From contig JABGZB010000033.1 of NCBI GenBank assembly GCA_018674955.1, positions 1-35,059 of the forward strand: a DNA stretch of 35,059 bases, in the 5' to 3' direction. Positions 9,158-23,278 of this stretch are shown here, piece by piece. The position numbers and the translations under genes were made by a program. The notes under the pieces were generated by a model. It saw only the letters and a list, made by a program, of their open reading frames with translations. It was not told the DNA's origin and searched no databases. The first letter of the stretch is position 1, and every line of letters begins with the position of its first letter. Source of the DNA: Verrucomicrobiota bacterium. GTDB lineage: Bacteria; Verrucomicrobiota; Verrucomicrobiia; Limisphaerales; UBA1096.

Positions 9158-10273
9158 GTGATCCGCATCGAGACTGTTGAAAACCGAACAGAGCTCCGCG
9201 AGTTTGTCCGGTTTCCGCTAAGTATTTATAGTGACGGATCGCCTTGGGTGCCTCCGGTTTGGCGCGATGAAATGATGCGACTCGATAGGGCGCACAGCCC
9301 TTTTTTTCAGCAATCGGACGCGGCGTTGTTCCTCGCACGGGACGATGCTGGCGAGCCGGTCGGGCGCATCGCGGCGATACGGTTCAACCGCCACCTCGAG
9401 ATGTACGGCGACGGCGTCGGCTTCTTCGGCTTCTTCGAGTGTGTTGATGACGAGTCGGTGGCCGGACGCCTGTTCGCGGTGGCGGCGGAGTGGCTGCGCG
9501 GACAGGGGCTCCAGCGCATGCGCGGCCCGGCGAGCTTTACCATCAACGAGGAAATCGGGTTGCTGATCGAGAATTTCGACGAGCCTCCGACGCTGCTCAC
9601 GACGTGGAACCCGCCGTACTATCGGCGGCTGGTTGAGTCGGCCGGCTTGGCCAAGGCGGAGGATCTGTTGGCGCGCGAGGTGGCGTTTGCCGACTTGGAC
9701 GTGCGCTACCTCGAGCGCCTGGCCAAGGCCGGCGCGCGGAACGGCCAAGTGACCATTCGCCCGGCGAACCTGGCGAAGCTCGAGGCGGAGGTGGAAATCC
9801 TCATGAAGATTTACGCGGAGGCGTGGAGCGAGAACTGGGGCGCGGTGCCGATCAGCCATGACGAGTTCCAGAAACTAGCCGGGGATCTCAAGCCGTTCCT
9901 GCTGCCGGAGTGCACGCTGATCGCCGAGTACGACGGTGAGCCGGTGGGCATTTGTGTGGCGGTGCCGGACATCAATGTGGCTGTCAAGGCGTGCGGCGGC
10001 CGGTTCGGGCCGCTTGGTCTGTTGCGTTTTATGCTGGCGCGCCGCCGCATCGACACCGTGCGCGGATTGGTGGCGGGAGTGCTGAAGGCGCACCGGAACA
10101 AAGGCATCGAGTCGGCATTTGGCTCGCAAATTGCCAAATCGCTGATGGGAAGTCGGTACAAGCGGATGGAGTTCTCGTGGATGCTGGAGTCGAACTTTCG
10201 AGTGCATCGCGTGCTGGAAAACTCCGGCGCGAAAGTGACCAAGCGCTGGCGTGTTTACGAGCGCGAGCTTTAG
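9158..10273 (+). CDS. YghO-like GNAT-fold protein
   Basis: About 371 residues, cytoplasmic. The N-terminus (FVRFPLSIYSDGSPWVPPVWRDE), the block GRIAAIRFNRHLEMYGDGVGFFGFFEC and the C-terminal RGLVAGVLKAHRNKGIESAFGSQIAKS...MEFSWMLESNFRVHRVLENSGAKVTKRWRVYERE match proteins annotated as YghO or N-acetyltransferase-like. The tandem GNAT-like arrangement suggests acyl transfer, but no substrate is known to me. The track start is TTG 9152; the GTG at 9158 sits 7 nt behind AAGAG and is the better start. It diverges from the M28 peptidase and its TAG stop shares the bases TTAG with the pyrF stop. Confidence 0.75.
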   Translation: MIRIETVENRTELREFVRFPLSIYSDGSPWVPPVWRDEMMRLDRAHSPFFQQSDAALFLARDDAGEPVGRIAAIRFNRHLEMYGDGVGFFGFFECVDDESVAGRLFAVAAEWLRGQGLQRMRGPASFTINEEIGLLIENFDEPPTLLTTWNPPYYRRLVESAGLAKAEDLLAREVAFADLDVRYLERLAKAGARNGQVTIRPANLAKLEAEVEILMKIYAEAWSENWGAVPISHDEFQKLAGDLKPFLLPECTLIAEYDGEPVGICVAVPDINVAVKACGGRFGPLGLLRFMLARRRIDTVRGLVAGVLKAHRNKGIESAFGSQIAKSLMGSRYKRMEFSWMLESNFRVHRVLENSGAKVTKRWRVYEREL

Positions 10274-11130
10274 CTTGCCTTGTGCTCGACGTCTTTGTCG
10301 CAGTGGGGGCAGTGGTACCGGCCGGCGGCCTGCTCGGCGGCATCCAGCTTTAGGCTTTGGCCGCACTCGGCGCAGTCGACGATTTCCGGGATCGGCTCGC
10401 GGCGTTCGCCCTCGGGAACCAACTCGGGGTTGATTGAGTGAAGAATACCGATGGCGGCAGCCTTAGGATCGGCGGAACCAGTGATGGGACGGCCGATCAC
10501 CAGCCAGTTCGCTCCGGCTTGGATGGCATCGGCCGGTGTCATGGTGCGTTTCTGGTCGTCGGCCTTGCTCGACTCGGGGCGGATGCCGGGCGTGACCAAC
10601 TGGATGTCGTTGCCCAGCTCGGCGCGGAGCATCTCGATTTCCTGCGGCGAACAAACCAGCCCGCGCAGTCCGGCGCCGGTGGCGAGCTTGGCCAACCGCA
10701 ACACTTGTTCCTGCACGCTGCCCGTGATGCCCAGTTCGGCGAGGTTGTTGTCGTCCATGCTGGTGAGCACAGTGACGCCGAGCACGAGCGGTGCCTCGGC
10801 GCGGAGCATGGCGGCCTGTTCGTGGGCAGCGTTCTCGGCGGCGGTAAGCATCGCAGTGCCACCCGAAGCGTGGACGGTGGTCATCTTCACGCCGAGGTCG
10901 GTGGCCGCGATGACGGCCTTGGCCACGGTGTTGGGGATGTCGTGCAGTTTGAGGTCAAGAAACACCTTCGCGCCGGTCGCGCGGAGTTTGCGGACGATGT
11001 CCGGCCCGCCGCTAATGAAGAGCTGCTTGCCCACCTTGAACGCGCCGACGAGAGGGGCGAGTTCTTCGGCGAGTTTCAGGGCCTTGTGCGGGCTGGGAAG
11101 GTCGAGCGCGACAATAATAGGATTGTTCAC
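10270..11130 (-). CDS. pyrF: Orotidine 5'-phosphate decarboxylase with zinc-ribbon tail
   Basis: Decarboxylates OMP to UMP, the last step of de novo pyrimidine synthesis. The barrel shows NPIIVALDLPSPHKALKLAEEL, the catalytic KVFLDLKLHDIPNTVAKA (D-x-K-x-x-D), MTTVHASGG, and VTPGIRPESSKADDQKRTMTPADAIQAGANWLVIGRPITGS for phosphate binding. After about residue 245 there is an extra segment, CAECGQSLKLDAAEQAAGRYHCPHCDKDVEHKAS, with two CxxC pairs typical of a zinc ribbon; ordinary PyrF (about 235-245 residues) lacks this. The start is GTG (11128-11130). It lies 31 nt downstream of the LysR gene on the same strand and may share its transcript. Confidence 0.93.
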   Translation of the reverse strand: MNNPIIVALDLPSPHKALKLAEELAPLVGAFKVGKQLFISGGPDIVRKLRATGAKVFLDLKLHDIPNTVAKAVIAATDLGVKMTTVHASGGTAMLTAAENAAHEQAAMLRAEAPLVLGVTVLTSMDDNNLAELGITGSVQEQVLRLAKLATGAGLRGLVCSPQEIEMLRAELGNDIQLVTPGIRPESSKADDQKRTMTPADAIQAGANWLVIGRPITGSADPKAAAIGILHSINPELVPEGERREPIPEIVDCAECGQSLKLDAAEQAAGRYHCPHCDKDVEHKAS

Positions 11131-11161
11131 GGCGGCAGTCTAGTGGGGTGCGGTTTGATTG

Positions 11162-12076
11162 TCAGGTGGTTTTGCCGCTCGACTGTGCCTCGTCGGCGAG
11201 CATTTGATTGAGATTCCCGACGTGCCATTCGATGCCCGCTATGAACGACTGGAGCAGTCCCTCTAGTTTGCCTTGCCACAAGACACCAAGCTTGAGTGTC
11301 GGAAAGCCGGGCAGCGGAATGGCGCGTACGCCCGGCACGCGCCTGGAGGAGGGCGACACTACACCGATGCCGATGCCGAAGCCTTTGGTCGCGAGTTTCT
11401 CCACCAGGTCGAACGAGTTGACCTCGAGCGTCGTGTGCCAGTCCACGCCCGCATCGGTCAGGCCGGTGCGGAAGATTTTTGTCACCGGCTCATCCGCCGG
11501 CATGCAGATGAGTGGCTCGGTGATTTTTCTCCGCTCTATCAACTCCTCGACCGACTTGATCTTGGACGACCGCCGGGCCACCAGCACCAGCGGAATCTCG
11601 AGCAGTGAGCGCGCCTCGATGCCGGGCGGGGGTTCCTTCTCAAGCACCGTCACGGCGACGTCGATCTCGCGGGCGAGCAGGGCTGTCTCCAGCGCTGGCT
11701 GATGTCCGGGCCGAAGCGACACTCGCAGGTCAGGTCGGTCCTCACGAACCTTTTCCATGATCGTTGGCATGTGGTCGCTCAGGATAATGTGCGATGCGCC
11801 AACGCGGATCCGCTGCGATTCCCCGCCGCGCAGGTCGTCGGACATCTTGTTGAGGTTGCTGAAAAACGGCTCGACGAACTCGTAGAGTTTCCGCCCCGTT
11901 TCCGTCAACTCGAACGGCCGGCGGTGGAACAGCGTCGCGTCGATGTGCTCCTCGAGGAGTGTGATCTGCGAGCTGACCGCCGGTTGCTGGATGCCGTAGG
12001 GGATCTTGCGCACGGCGTTGCTGATGCCCTCGTGCTTGGCCACGTAGTAAAACAGTTCGAGATGATGAATGTTCAT
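11162..12076 (-). CDS. LysR-family transcriptional regulator
   Basis: A 304-residue LTTR starting at the ATG 12074-12076 (MNIHHLELFYYVAKHEGISNAVRKIPYGIQQPAVSSQITLLEEHIDATLFHRRPFELTETG), which is the winged helix-turn-helix. The rest is the periplasmic-binding-protein-like effector domain (RIRVGASHIILSDHMPTIMEKVREDRPDLRVSLRPG...). The ORF track starts 59 codons too early. The HTH has an insertion (IPYGIQQPAVSSQ) compared with the usual SQPAVSRQ spacing. It is divergent from the PSD1 gene, 119 bp away, and LTTRs often control the divergent neighbour, so it may regulate 12196-16811; the effector is unknown. Confidence 0.9.
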   Translation of the reverse strand: MNIHHLELFYYVAKHEGISNAVRKIPYGIQQPAVSSQITLLEEHIDATLFHRRPFELTETGRKLYEFVEPFFSNLNKMSDDLRGGESQRIRVGASHIILSDHMPTIMEKVREDRPDLRVSLRPGHQPALETALLAREIDVAVTVLEKEPPPGIEARSLLEIPLVLVARRSSKIKSVEELIERRKITEPLICMPADEPVTKIFRTGLTDAGVDWHTTLEVNSFDLVEKLATKGFGIGIGVVSPSSRRVPGVRAIPLPGFPTLKLGVLWQGKLEGLLQSFIAGIEWHVGNLNQMLADEAQSSGKTT

Positions 12077-17564: not shown

Positions 17565-19199
17565 ATGATCATGAGGAGAACAGCTTGGTTATTGGGATTG
17601 GTTGGCAGCATGAGTTTGGCCGTGGCTGGGCCGGGTCATGGCGGGGCCGACGAGCACTCGGATGGGCACGACACCGGCGGGCTTGAGTTTACGCTGAAGC
17701 CGAAGGGGCTTGGCCAAGAGGGGCAGTTCCAGTTCCGCGTCGACGGCCCGGCGGTAAATTATTTCGCCCAATTTCTCGGCGACGGCTTTCACGTGGAAAG
17801 TTCCACCGACCTTAGACGGTGGCGCAACGTCGACCTGCTGAAGGCAACCAGCGAGGAGACGGTTTTCGAGGATGGGGGCGACGCCACACGGAGCCGATTT
17901 TACCGCGTGCGCTACGAGGGAGGCACGTCCACTTGGGGCATTATTCGTGATCGCATCCTTGGCCCGAGCTGTGCCGGTTGCCACAGCAAGGGCACGACGT
18001 TTGCGAAGCAGTCGAAGCTGCTTCTCACGCCGGATGTCGCCTATGGACAGCTCGTCAATCGCAAGCCGGCCAACACTTACGCGCTTGAGGACGGGCTGGA
18101 ACTTGTCGGCACCGAGGGGTTGGCAAGCCTCGGCAAAAGTTTTCTGTGGGAGAAAATCAACACCGCCGAGGGGCAACATTTTTACGACGACCACCCTGGC
18201 TACGGCTCCCTGATGCCGTTGGGCGCTGACCCGCTGACCGACGGCGAGCTCAAGTTCATCCTGCAATGGATTCTCGAGGGCGCGCCGGAGCACGGCGTCG
18301 TGGCCAAGGTCGCCGACTTAGACAACCTCGAGCGCTATGCGCCTCCTCCGTTCACGCCCTTAGACAAACCGGAAAGTGGCATCCAACTGCACGTCGAGCC
18401 ATTCGAAGTGCCGGCAAATTTCGAACGCGAGTTCTTTATGTACAAGGAGTTGAACAATAACAAACCGGTGTATGTGAATCGTGTCCAGATTGAGATGAGA
18501 TCGGGCAGCCACCATTTCCTCGCCTACCTGCTGGATTCATCGAGCCCGTTTTTCTCGTTTGCCAAGCAGTTGTTCGTGCCGAACAAACTCCGCGACCTGC
18601 ACCTGTCCAATGGCGAGGACGATCCGCTGGTGTTGGCGACGATGGCGTTCCACGATTTTTTTGCTGGGACACAGACACCGCGCTTCGACTACGAATTTCC
18701 CGATGGCGTGGCGCTCAAGCTTCCGGCCCAGACCGGCCTCGATCTGAACACGCATTATGTCAACCGCACCGGCGATCCGTCCACCGGCGAGGTGTACATG
18801 AACCTGCACACTATCGATAAGGCGGCCGTCAAACACGAGGCCAAGATCATCAACATGAACAACACCGATATCGAGCTACCGCCCAACCGGGAAACCACGG
18901 TAACCGCCGACTTTCGCGCGCCTGAGACGATGAATATTTTCCAGCTCTTTTCGCATTCGCATGAGAAGACCATCGAGTTTCGCGTCGAGATCGCTGGCGG
19001 CAAGCGGGACGGGGAGTTGCTCTACATTTCCTATGACTGGGAGCATCCGCCAGTGATGAAGTTCGACCCGCCGCTCGTGGTGAAGCGAGGCGAGAAAATC
19101 CGCCTGAAAACCACATACAATAACTGGACAGACGAGACTATCAACTTCGGCCTGCGCAGCACTGACGAGATGATGATCCTCTTTGGCGCGTATTATTAA
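17565..19199 (+). CDS. Cytochrome c / PHM-type copper monooxygenase-like fusion
   Basis: A 544-residue exported protein. Signal peptide about 1-22. Residues about 55-116 (VESSTDLRRWRNV...RFYRV) form a verrucomicrobial beta-sandwich module. A cytochrome c domain follows: heme motif C136-AG-C139-H140 and a probable axial Met in YGSLMPLGADPLTDGELKFILQWILEGAP. Residues 270-544 resemble the type II copper, ascorbate-dependent monooxygenases (PHM/DBM). All six PHM copper ligands appear to be matched: H316/H317 (GSHHFLAY) and H397 (NTHYVN) for one site, and H464/H466 (FSHSHEK) with M536 (TDEMMILFGAYY) for the other. It may hydroxylate a substrate with electrons from the fused heme. An alternative ATG two codons in (17571) would give MRRTAWLL. 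Substrate unknown. Confidence 0.8.
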   Translation: MIMRRTAWLLGLVGSMSLAVAGPGHGGADEHSDGHDTGGLEFTLKPKGLGQEGQFQFRVDGPAVNYFAQFLGDGFHVESSTDLRRWRNVDLLKATSEETVFEDGGDATRSRFYRVRYEGGTSTWGIIRDRILGPSCAGCHSKGTTFAKQSKLLLTPDVAYGQLVNRKPANTYALEDGLELVGTEGLASLGKSFLWEKINTAEGQHFYDDHPGYGSLMPLGADPLTDGELKFILQWILEGAPEHGVVAKVADLDNLERYAPPPFTPLDKPESGIQLHVEPFEVPANFEREFFMYKELNNNKPVYVNRVQIEMRSGSHHFLAYLLDSSSPFFSFAKQLFVPNKLRDLHLSNGEDDPLVLATMAFHDFFAGTQTPRFDYEFPDGVALKLPAQTGLDLNTHYVNRTGDPSTGEVYMNLHTIDKAAVKHEAKIINMNNTDIELPPNRETTVTADFRAPETMNIFQLFSHSHEKTIEFRVEIAGGKRDGELLYISYDWEHPPVMKFDPPLVVKRGEKIRLKTTYNNWTDETINFGLRSTDEMMILFGAYY

Positions 19200-20468: not shown

Positions 20469-21683
20469 ATGAAAAAAATTCTACTTACTTTCACTTTTGC
20501 TGCCTTGGCCAACGGCGCGGCGGCGGGCGACTGGACCGGTTTTCGCGGGCCACTTGGCAACGGCGTCTCGGACGAAGTCGGGCTGCCGGTCGCGCTCAAC
20601 GCGAAGAAGCACATCTCGTGGCGGATCGACCTGCCGGGCCGGGGGCTCTCGAGTCCGCTCGTCGTGGGCAATCGCGTTTTTGTCACTGCCAGCGCCGGCA
20701 CGCGGCAGGATCAGTTGCAGATAATTTGCATCAACGCTGCCGATGGCTCGGTGATTTGGCAGCGCCAGTTTTGGGCTATGGGCAGTACGATGTGCCATAA
20801 TAAAACCAGCATCGCCGCCCCCACGCCGGTGACGGATGGCCGACTGCTGTTCGCGATCTTTTCATCGAATGACCTGTTCTGCCTCGACCTCGACGGGAAC
20901 CTCCAGTGGCTGCGCGGCATGACGCTGGATTACCCGAATGCCCGCAACAGCCTCGGCATGGCGTCGTCGCTCGTGCTCGCCGGCGGTGTGCTGGTCGCGC
21001 AGGTGGAGAACGACAGTGAGTCGTTCACGGCCGGACTCGACAAACAAACCGGGGTGAACCTTTGGAGGGCGGATCGTCCGAAGTCAGCCAACTGGACCAC
21101 GGCCACAGTGCAAAAAATCGGGTCGGGGGCGGAGATGCTGCTGCTGCAATCAGGCGATGGTATCCACGCCGTGAACCCGAAAAATGGCGAGGTCGTCTGG
21201 CACTACGCCGACGGCGCATCGACGATCCCGTCGAGCGCGCTGGCCGGTGGAGTACTCTACGTGCCGTCGCACGGTTTGACGGCGCTCGAGTTGGCGGATG
21301 ATGGCAGATCGTTCAAGCAGAAATGGCGCTCGTCGCGACTGCGCCCGGGCACGGCCAGCCCGCTCGTGCACCGCGACCGGGTTTACAGCCTGAACAACGC
21401 CGGCGTGCTGACGTGTGGTGACACCGATAGCGGCAAGCGGCTTTGGCAACTGCGCCTCGACGGGCCGTTCGGCGGCTCGCCCGTGGTGGCTGACAATCAT
21501 CTGTACGCCTTCAACGAGGAGGGCAAGGCGCAGGTGGTGGATTTGTCCGCGCCGGAGGGGCGCATCGCCGGCGAAATGGATTTGGGTGAGATGATCCAGT
21601 GTTCGCCGGCTGTCTCGAATGGCGCGCTTTATGTTCGGAGCAACGGGCGCATCTGGAAGATTGCCCGAAAAACTCAGCTTTGA
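20469..21683 (+). CDS. Exported PQQ-type beta-propeller protein
   Basis: About 404 residues. Start is the ATG at 20469 (MKKILLTFTFAALANGAAAGDWTGFRGP), which gives a normal signal peptide; the track start at 20343 lies inside the previous gene. Repeated blades are visible: PLVVGNRVFVTASAG..QLQIICINAADGSVIWQRQF, DLFCLDLDGNLQWL, GDGIHAVNPKNGEVVWHYADGAS, DRVYSLNNAGVLTCGDTDSGKRLWQLRLDGPFGGSPVVADNHLYAFNEEGKAQVVD. The opening WTGFRGPLGNGVSDE is typical of PQQ-like domain proteins in Planctomycetes/Verrucomicrobia, which mostly lack PQQ-binding residues, so a scaffold or sensor role is as likely as a dehydrogenase. Operon partner of the HEAT-like gene. Confidence 0.87.
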   Translation: MKKILLTFTFAALANGAAAGDWTGFRGPLGNGVSDEVGLPVALNAKKHISWRIDLPGRGLSSPLVVGNRVFVTASAGTRQDQLQIICINAADGSVIWQRQFWAMGSTMCHNKTSIAAPTPVTDGRLLFAIFSSNDLFCLDLDGNLQWLRGMTLDYPNARNSLGMASSLVLAGGVLVAQVENDSESFTAGLDKQTGVNLWRADRPKSANWTTATVQKIGSGAEMLLLQSGDGIHAVNPKNGEVVWHYADGASTIPSSALAGGVLYVPSHGLTALELADDGRSFKQKWRSSRLRPGTASPLVHRDRVYSLNNAGVLTCGDTDSGKRLWQLRLDGPFGGSPVVADNHLYAFNEEGKAQVVDLSAPEGRIAGEMDLGEMIQCSPAVSNGALYVRSNGRIWKIARKTQL

Positions 21684-23278
21684 CAGTGAGCGGTGGGGGT
21701 GAAACTTTCGAGTCGTTGTCGAGTCTCCGACGCGGTCCCGAACTGGCGCCCAATGACGCTAACGGCCATATGCTGTTTGGCACCGCCCTGGCGGAGGCCG
21801 GGCAACCCGGAGAGGCGCTTGGCTATTTGCAGCGTTCGGTGGAACTCGCCCCGTCGTTGGTTCGTGGCCACATCCGGCTGGGCAATCTCCTGCGCGAACT
21901 CAGCCGGACCGGCGAGGCGGTCGAGGCTTACGGGCGGGCGCTCGAGTTGCGGCCCGCCGATCCGTTCATCCTCTCTAACCTTGGCAACGCATGGCTGGAC
22001 TTGAGCGAGGCGGGGCGGGCCATCGAATGCTACCGGCAGTCGCTTGAGATACATCCCGACGCGCCGACCACTTTCAGCAATCTCGTCTTTGCGATGCAGT
22101 ACGACTCGGGGATCAGCCGCGAAGAGATCGCTGCCGCGCACCGGGAATGGGGTGGGCGTTTTGGCCAAGCGCTTGGTCAAGTGGACGCGCTGCCATGCGA
22201 TGGGCGGCGGTCGTTGCGCGTTGGTTTTTTATCGGCCGATTTCCGGTATCACCCGGTCGGCCGCATGGCCTCGGCGCTGTGGCAAAACCTGGATCGGGCC
22301 AGCGTGACGCCGATCGTTTACGACAACTCCGCCAGCGACTCGTCGGCCAAGTGCCAGTACCACGAGTTGGTTGCGGAATGGCATGACATCGCCGCGTTGC
22401 CGGATGACGCCGTGGCGGAACGGATTCGCGTCGACCAACTCGATGTCCTCATCGATTTGTCCGGGCACACTTCCGGGAACCGGCTTGCGGTGCTGGCCCA
22501 AAAGCCGGCGCCGGTTCAGGTCACCCTGTTCGCGTACCCGAACACAACAGGACTGTCGTCGGTGGATTGGCGGATCACCGACTCGCTGGCCGATCCCCCC
22601 GGTGCCGAGTCGCTTTATGTCGAGCAACTGTTGCGGCTGCCGTCGGTGGCGTGGGTGTACGGCGCGCCGAAGAACAGCCCCGAGCCGGGCGCCATGCCGT
22701 GCCTCGCCGGAGAGCCGTTCACGTTTGGCTGTCTGAACAACCCGGCCAAGATCAGCGCGTCGGCGGTGGAAACTTGGAGCGAAATCCTGCGGGTTTGTCC
22801 CGGGTCGAGGCTGTTGTTGCAGACGCGCGACGACCCGGCGCACGAGGGGTTGCTGTTAGTCAAGTTCGAGCGGCACGGCATCGGCGCCGGGCAGCTTGTG
22901 TTTGCCGTGAAAGGGCCGGAGCGCGGTTACCTCGAACTGCACAATCGCATCGACTTGATGCTGGATCCGTTCCCGTACAACGGCGGCGTGTCGACGGGGG
23001 ATTGTCTTTGGATGGGCACGCCGATTTTGGCGCTGGAGGGCGACAGCTACGTGTCGCGGCAGGGGGTGAGCCTGCTGACGAGTGTGGGGTTGCCGGAGTT
23101 GATCGCTGCCGATCGCGAGGCATTAGTGGCCAAGGCGGCGGACTGGTTTGAGTCGCCGGCCCGCTTGGCCAAGCTGGCTGATGGCTTGCGGGGGAGGCTG
23201 CAGCGATCGCCGCTGATGGATCACGCCGCGTACGCCCGGGAATTTACGGAGGCGCTCGAGGGGCTTATTACGGCTTGA
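21680..23278 (+). CDS. TPR / OGT-family (GT41) glycosyltransferase
   Basis: About 532 residues. Three or four TPRs (ANGHMLFGTALAEAGQPGEALGYLQRSVELAPSLVRGHIRLGNLLRELSRTGEAVEAYGRALELRPADP, LGNAWLDLSEAGRAIECYRQSLEIHP) precede a GT41 catalytic region: LRVGFLSADFRYHPVGRM, VDQLDVLIDLSGHTSGNRLAVLAQKPAPVQVTLFAYPNTTGLSSVDWRITD, FGCLNNPAKIS, HNRIDLMLDPFPYNGGVSTGDCLWMGTPILALEG. Relatives add GlcNAc to proteins. The reading frame is open upstream into the PQQ gene; the best starts are TTG 21680, overlapping the PQQ stop as TTGA, or GTG 21686. The first TPR helix seems incomplete, so the N-terminus may be eroded. Its last 11 bp overlap the convergent DUF1232-like gene. Confidence 0.85.
   Translation: MTVSGGGETFESLSSLRRGPELAPNDANGHMLFGTALAEAGQPGEALGYLQRSVELAPSLVRGHIRLGNLLRELSRTGEAVEAYGRALELRPADPFILSNLGNAWLDLSEAGRAIECYRQSLEIHPDAPTTFSNLVFAMQYDSGISREEIAAAHREWGGRFGQALGQVDALPCDGRRSLRVGFLSADFRYHPVGRMASALWQNLDRASVTPIVYDNSASDSSAKCQYHELVAEWHDIAALPDDAVAERIRVDQLDVLIDLSGHTSGNRLAVLAQKPAPVQVTLFAYPNTTGLSSVDWRITDSLADPPGAESLYVEQLLRLPSVAWVYGAPKNSPEPGAMPCLAGEPFTFGCLNNPAKISASAVETWSEILRVCPGSRLLLQTRDDPAHEGLLLVKFERHGIGAGQLVFAVKGPERGYLELHNRIDLMLDPFPYNGGVSTGDCLWMGTPILALEGDSYVSRQGVSLLTSVGLPELIAADREALVAKAADWFESPARLAKLADGLRGRLQRSPLMDHAAYAREFTEALEGLITA

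Follow-up and report, generated by a model that had tools for sequence, protein, structure and literature searches.

In animals, monooxygenases of the PHM/DBH type make amidated hormones and noradrenaline. How electrons are supplied to their two distant copper sites is a long-standing question, which has been studied mainly with ascorbate. Both enzymes take one electron per copper from ascorbate, and the two coppers, more than 11 Å apart, differ in their roles, CuH being the electron-transfer site and CuM the site of hydroxylation (PMC6123673, PMC4846438). In DBH (4ZEL), the PHM-type core is accompanied by an extra N-terminal domain, DOMON, whose fold is that of the cytochrome domain of cellobiose dehydrogenase (PMC4846438). 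There is also a precedent for a c-type cytochrome replacing ascorbate as the reductant of a bacterial copper monooxygenase: the X183 cytochrome of Cellvibrio japonicus (Cbp2D) reduces and activates bacterial LPMOs of family AA10, with less H2O2 than ascorbate (PMC8981238). In contrast to the protein described here, cytochrome and oxygenase are separate proteins in that system, and the copper enzyme is mononuclear and unrelated (PMC8981238).

The gene that we describe lies in a stretch of 35,059 nucleotides from a Verrucomicrobiota bacterium (contig JABGZB010000033.1 of assembly GCA_018674955.1), the whole of which we call the window. Its predicted product joins a c-type cytochrome-like domain to a PHM-like core, and the reading that on balance seems probable to us is that of an exported monooxygenase whose PHM/DBH-type dicopper core is served by a built-in heme electron inlet that would replace ascorbate.

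Gene and domain organization

The frame is open from ATG through stop and encodes 544 aa (table 1). Its translation bore out the CAGCH motif and all of the residue numbers given in the initial annotation for the six copper ligands. The signal peptide is the region of lowest conservation across the genus, and in orthologues from Cytophagales a lipobox Cys is found at its position. The linker that follows is rich in His in several members of the genus and less so in others; that it binds copper would be a guess. The small beta domain is missing from the aligned Cytophagales orthologues.

Table 1. Predicted features of the cytochrome c/PHM-like gene, in window coordinates
Feature	Position	Strand	Basis
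Whole gene, predicted secreted cytochrome c/PHM-like dicopper monooxygenase fusion, 544 aa	17565..19199	+	ORF, translation, genus orthologues
Predicted signal peptide, residues 1-22 (MIMRRTAWLLGLVGSMSLAVAG)	17565..17630	+	Sequence judged by eye
His/Asp-rich linker, residues 23-42 (GHGGADEHSDGHDTGG)	17631..17690	+	Sequence
Small beta domain, residues 43-118 (FHVESSTDLRRW; ESSTDLRRW)	17691..17918	+	AF2 strands, low confidence; alignments
c-type cytochrome-like domain, residues 119-245	17919..18299	+	Genus conservation; profile relations
Heme c attachment motif CAGCH, residues 136-140	17970..17984	+	Sequence, alignment
Candidate axial heme ligand M217 (LMPLG)	18213..18215	+	Alignment
PHM-like N-terminal (CuH) jelly-roll half, residues 269-430	18369..18854	+	Profile, AF2, Foldseek
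CuH ligands H316, H317 (rat PHM H107, H108)	18510..18515	+	Alignment, profile
CuH ligand H397 (rat PHM H172)	18753..18755	+	Alignment, profile
PHM-like C-terminal (CuM) jelly-roll half, residues 431-544	18855..19196	+	Profile, AF2, Foldseek; subthreshold Pfam
CuM ligands H464, H466 (rat PHM H242, H244)	18954..18962	+	Alignment, profile
CuM ligand M536 (rat PHM M314), in STDEMMILF	19170..19172	+	Alignment, profile

The copper core

The relation to PHM was nearly missed by single-sequence tools. The window protein did not reach the curated Pfam cut-offs of PF03712 and PF01082 (residues 454-544 matched Cu2_monoox_C at 15.3 bits, under the cut-off of 23), an NCBIfam search with it gave no match, and neither did phmmer against the PDB with the single sequence. 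The alignment of its relatives changes this picture. A profile from 18 aligned proteins matched rat PHM (E=2.4e-8), with the copper ligands in register, and human DBH (4.8e-6), and PF03712 matched 53 of 73 family members at E<=0.01, a threshold different from the curated cut-off. When aligned explicitly with rat PHM, the window protein was identical in the six ligand columns, H316, H317, H397, H464, H466 and M536 corresponding one-to-one to H107, H108, H172, H242, H244 and M314. Both the three-His CuH site and the two-His plus Met CuM site of the PHM/DBH dicopper monooxygenases are therefore represented. Only 19 columns are invariant among the 18 proteins, whose identity goes down to 20%, and these take in C136, C139 and H140 as well as the six copper ligands.

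An AlphaFold2 (AF2) model of the window protein, built from 73 alignment rows, had a mean pLDDT of 76, with most of the PHM core at roughly 90 or higher and poor values in the first 120 residues. In a Foldseek comparison of this model with the PDB, the top 31 ranks were all DBH/PHM chains, with E between 3.7e-14 and 9e-9, a probability of 1.00 and TM values over the target reaching 0.65. The rmsd values of 5-8 Å mean that the two jelly rolls are placed not exactly as in the PHM/DBH crystals. As modelled, the core takes the two-jelly-roll fold of DBH and of PHM (PF01082/PF03712; rat 1PHM, 1OPM, 1SDW). The family-wide invariance of the ligands and this fold rule out that the ligand matches arose by chance. 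The initial annotation had ascribed counterparts of all six PHM ligands to the C-terminal half, which profile, rat PHM alignment and family conservation confirm; it had also named two findings that would speak against it, a fold with dispersed histidines and relatives without the ligands, and we saw neither, the relatives keeping the ligands.

The pocket differs from that of PHM, in whose structures R240, N316, Y318 and M320 have roles in peptide binding and Q170 and Q272 in the second shell. In the alignment, the first four are replaced in the window protein by F, I, F and A, respectively, and in the window branch Q170 is replaced by N and Q272 by P. With the peptide-binding residues of peptidylglycine hydroxylase (R240, N316 and Y318) not found in the window protein, that activity is unlikely and the substrate is probably other than peptidyl-glycine; their loss argues against peptide amidation. 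The changes at R240, N316, Y318, Q170 and Q272 might also suit a dicopper site with other chemistry, such as an H2O2 peroxygenase, a copper dehydrogenase or oxidase passing electrons to the heme, or a reductase, and fused c-heme domains act as electron acceptors in periplasmic dehydrogenases. We hold such chemistry to be unlikely, however, as the first-shell ligands are unchanged at both copper sites and the top fold matches are hydroxylases that use O2.

The heme domain

The fused c-heme motif, together with the bacterial origin and predicted export, sets the window protein apart from PHM. Its heme segment contains C136-A-G-C139-H140, the CxxCH signature of class I-type cytochromes c. The DOMON domain of DBH has no described heme, whereas the c-type motif of the N-terminal domain of the window protein predicts covalent heme attachment. 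M217, which judging by sequence would lie before the C-terminal helix as expected of an axial Met, is conserved and present in every heme-bearing orthologue aligned. In one frame of 565 aa (L201), the heme Cys/His and this Met are jointly lost with the six copper ligands intact, and in Cytophagales the spacing of the motif alternates between CX2CH and CX4CH while the MPL..L..G block is constant. Joint loss and block constancy support M217 as the candidate axial heme ligand, and the c-type motif with a plausible axial Met proposed in the initial annotation stands.

Within the genus, identity is 83-98% in the heme domain and 78-91% in the first (N-terminal) half of the PHM core; for most genus pairs the heme domain has the higher value of the two, and its conservation is similar to that of the copper domain. 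Modelled alone by AF2 without heme, the segment formed a helical domain (pLDDT 81), for which Foldseek returned no match under E 0.001. Structure prediction, the first check that had been proposed for this protein, thus recovered the expected fold for the copper core and gave no such match for the heme segment. By HHalign, the heme-domain profile is related to PSCyt1 (97%) and also to the heme domains of clade III (see below), and among PDB entries the family profile reached c-type cytochromes as well as hydrazine synthase alpha. The putative cytochrome fold is supported by motif, conservation and profiles, not by fold search.

This relation to PSCyt1, and the fact that a neighbouring PSD1 protein in the window has its own PSCyt1 domain, may indicate that a true PHM-type core carries a generic PSCyt1-like module for electron relay or docking at the surface, which would not feed the core in cis, with copper reduced by another reductant. 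Heme-free homologues that retain the copper ligands, and stand-alone heme-domain lipoproteins of similar type in Cytophagales, would agree with such a module. On the other hand, the domain is paired nearly universally with the same PHM core across phyla and is strongly conserved, from which functional coupling can be argued, and we give the relay explanation a low probability, if a somewhat higher one than the alternative chemistries above.

Distribution of the fusion

Across Planctomycetota, Acidobacteriota, Verrucomicrobiota, Armatimonadota, Bacteroidota and other groups, nearly every relative combines the copper ligands with a c-heme motif upstream. The predicted fusion is the usual domain arrangement in a large, widespread bacterial family and not the single curiosity suggested at first, and a one-off fusion can be ruled out; the survey of domain co-occurrence that had been called for found it near-universal in the family. 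In the first survey, loci were picked by a DNA pattern around DEM, by which M536 was partly forced; of the 88 core matches, 86 contained the six ligands and 83 an upstream CxxCH, with three of the five exceptions to the latter truncated by contig ends and two having CX3CH/CX4CH. Later surveys, independent of that pattern, used Pfam PF03712 or, for Cytophagales, the window protein itself. They recovered the six ligands in every match from Planctomycetota (29/29), Cytophagales (27/27) and Verrucomicrobiota (15/15), and CxxCH in 29/29 and 14/15 of the Planctomycetota and Verrucomicrobiota matches (the remaining one was cut). The 27 Cytophagales homologues comprise 8 with CX2CH, 18 with CX4CH and 1 without motif. 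For Acidobacteriota, where many rows are fragments, the counts were 24/34 for the six ligands and 30/34 for the heme motif. PF03712 was found in only 13 of 289 Verrucomicrobiota genomes. A literature search for cytochrome c/PHM fusions, limited to open-licence full texts, found no paper; the family is apparently unstudied, and the fusion is unusual in the literature, not in genomes.

Heme-free stand-alone homologues were found in myxobacteria, and one Polyangiaceae genome (G354) had eight PF03712 matches and four such proteins of ~320-365 aa (L127, L143, L146 and L149). The reverse situation is seen in Cytophagales, where stand-alone lipoproteins (L203, L204 and L205) have the window-type CX4CH heme domain as their sole domain and their host genomes also encode the fusion. 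The genome of the window has a second PHM-like gene (L121/L126; G000 contig C366, near 10731-11490), which belongs to the clade III type, carries a TPR-like tail, is cut off at the contig edge and adjoins an FG-GAP-like repeat protein. Four cytochrome c-PHM paralogues are arranged in tandem in an Acidobacteriota MAG (L109, frames 5339, 7169, 8852 and 10175), and in the one at 10175 the copper ligands have decayed (HSHTY-) with the heme motif intact.

A paralogue that keeps the heme motif without copper ligands could be expected if these were non-catalytic proteins binding copper and heme, for instance in copper storage or sensing, and the same might be said of the His-rich N-terminal linker and of the lack of a known substrate and of conserved pathway neighbours. 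Nevertheless, both copper sites have kept their ligands together from myxobacteria to Bacteroidota, and we regard a non-catalytic role as very improbable.

Phylogeny and horizontal transfer

Orthologues are present in 16 of the 20 remaining genomes of the genus; several are fragments, and those near full length have 77-90% identity. Other families of the order gave distant matches only. The closest relatives that bear a name are Verrucomicrobia MAGs, including one from Limisphaerales labelled as Pedosphaeraceae. Next come Bacteroidota, with full-length orthologues (38-53% identity) in 22 of 195 genomes of the Imperialibacter order. The Cytophagales lipoproteins among these relatives (e.g., Imperialibacter L036) show that identity over residues 120-544 and share the heme and copper anatomy of the window protein, but have a lipobox in place of the beta domain and, in most cases, CX4CH.

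In the tree, the genus was nested inside the Bacteroidota branch (starred 98, seven-row set), and the two together were separate from the branch of Planctomycetota and Acidobacteriota (clade III); the stand-alone heme-free myxobacterial forms were placed below the Bacteroidota group. HHalign likewise matched the core of the window branch better to the stand-alone forms (7e-47) than to clade III (3e-37). Tree and HHalign both put the core nearer to the Bacteroidota/myxobacterial branch, and membership of the window protein in clade III is ruled out. The simplest reading is that this branch probably reached the Pedosphaeraceae-like genus from Bacteroidota by horizontal transfer.

The clade III cytochrome c/Cu2_monoox_C fusions of Planctomycetota, Acidobacteriota, Verrucomicrobiota and Armatimonadota resemble the window protein in domain order, CxxCH plus Met and six ligands, but they form a separate deep branch and their heme domain has RMPPW and lacks the long insert. 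Unlike the window branch, they retain Q272 (47/47 rows) and mostly Q170 and Y79, and redoxin or TPR additions are frequent. The two fused branches are set apart in the tree by heme-free homologues, and a single origin of the fusion was not rejected (p-AU 0.164). It is possible, though we consider it doubtful, that these proteins are widespread bacterial PHM-type dicopper monooxygenases, wired to the respiratory chain by their fused cytochrome c and free of ascorbate, in which the wiring has more than one origin, the Bacteroidota branch, with its later move to marine Verrucomicrobiota, being separate from that of Planctomycetota and Acidobacteriota.

Electron supply

Comparison of sequences and structures provides the export signal, the c-heme motif with its Met, the PHM-fold core and the lost peptide-binding residues on which the heme-inlet reading is built. 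We infer that the c-type heme (His140/Met217) would take single electrons from c-type carriers of the respiratory chain, periplasmic or membrane-bound, and hand them one at a time to CuH (H316/H317/H397). CuM (H464/H466/M536) would bind O2 and hydroxylate a C-H bond of the substrate, with the second electron crossing the gap between CuH and CuM as in PHM, and the fused heme would thus stand in for ascorbate.

Electron delivery from heme to copper appears to be the best explanation of the fusion. Genes for cytochrome c assembly (PF01578) and SCO1-type copper delivery (PF02630) are present in the genome, and no ALO-type lactone oxidase (PF04030) was found in it at 88% completeness. An ascorbate-independent entry fits the absence of an ALO-type gene, the retention of the heme site and the published c-type cytochrome precedent. 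Counting against the heme-inlet reading are the heme-free homologues, L201, the lack of a cytochrome fold match, the changes at Q170 and Q272 and the lack of an operon partner; the myxobacterial homologues and L201, which has six copper ligands, show that the core can do without the heme. What the initial annotation observed in the sequence is confirmed, and its interpretation, a built-in heme giving electrons an entry independent of ascorbate, is partly supported.

A built-in, spectroscopically visible heme would allow direct tracking of transfer from heme to CuH and on to CuM. The PHM-type core is a broad bacterial trait, and the family, represented in the window by a gene from a marine bacterium, may run PHM/DBH-type chemistry without vitamin C.

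Genomic neighborhood

No conserved operon pointing to a donor or substrate was found at the genus or clade III loci, and no neighbour was dominant at the latter. Sharing of gene neighbours stops at the genus, with the CDP-alcohol phosphatidyltransferase gene reaching farthest. A search for a plasmid copy gave no match. Elsewhere in the window (21599-23278), TPR repeats are fused to an O-GlcNAc-transferase-like glycosyltransferase 41 domain.

The palindrome CTTGGCCAAG occurs at 21 sites of the 35-kb window, from 1438 to 34874, against 0.05 expected, one copy lying within the fusion gene (17709-17718). There are 1911 copies in the 4.04 Mb genome, compared with 10 of the reversed control, an abundance that recalls the cyanobacterial HIP1. 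Many relatives in the genus are also rich in the palindrome and some have none in the loci examined. Inside genes, it often codes for LGQA-like stretches.
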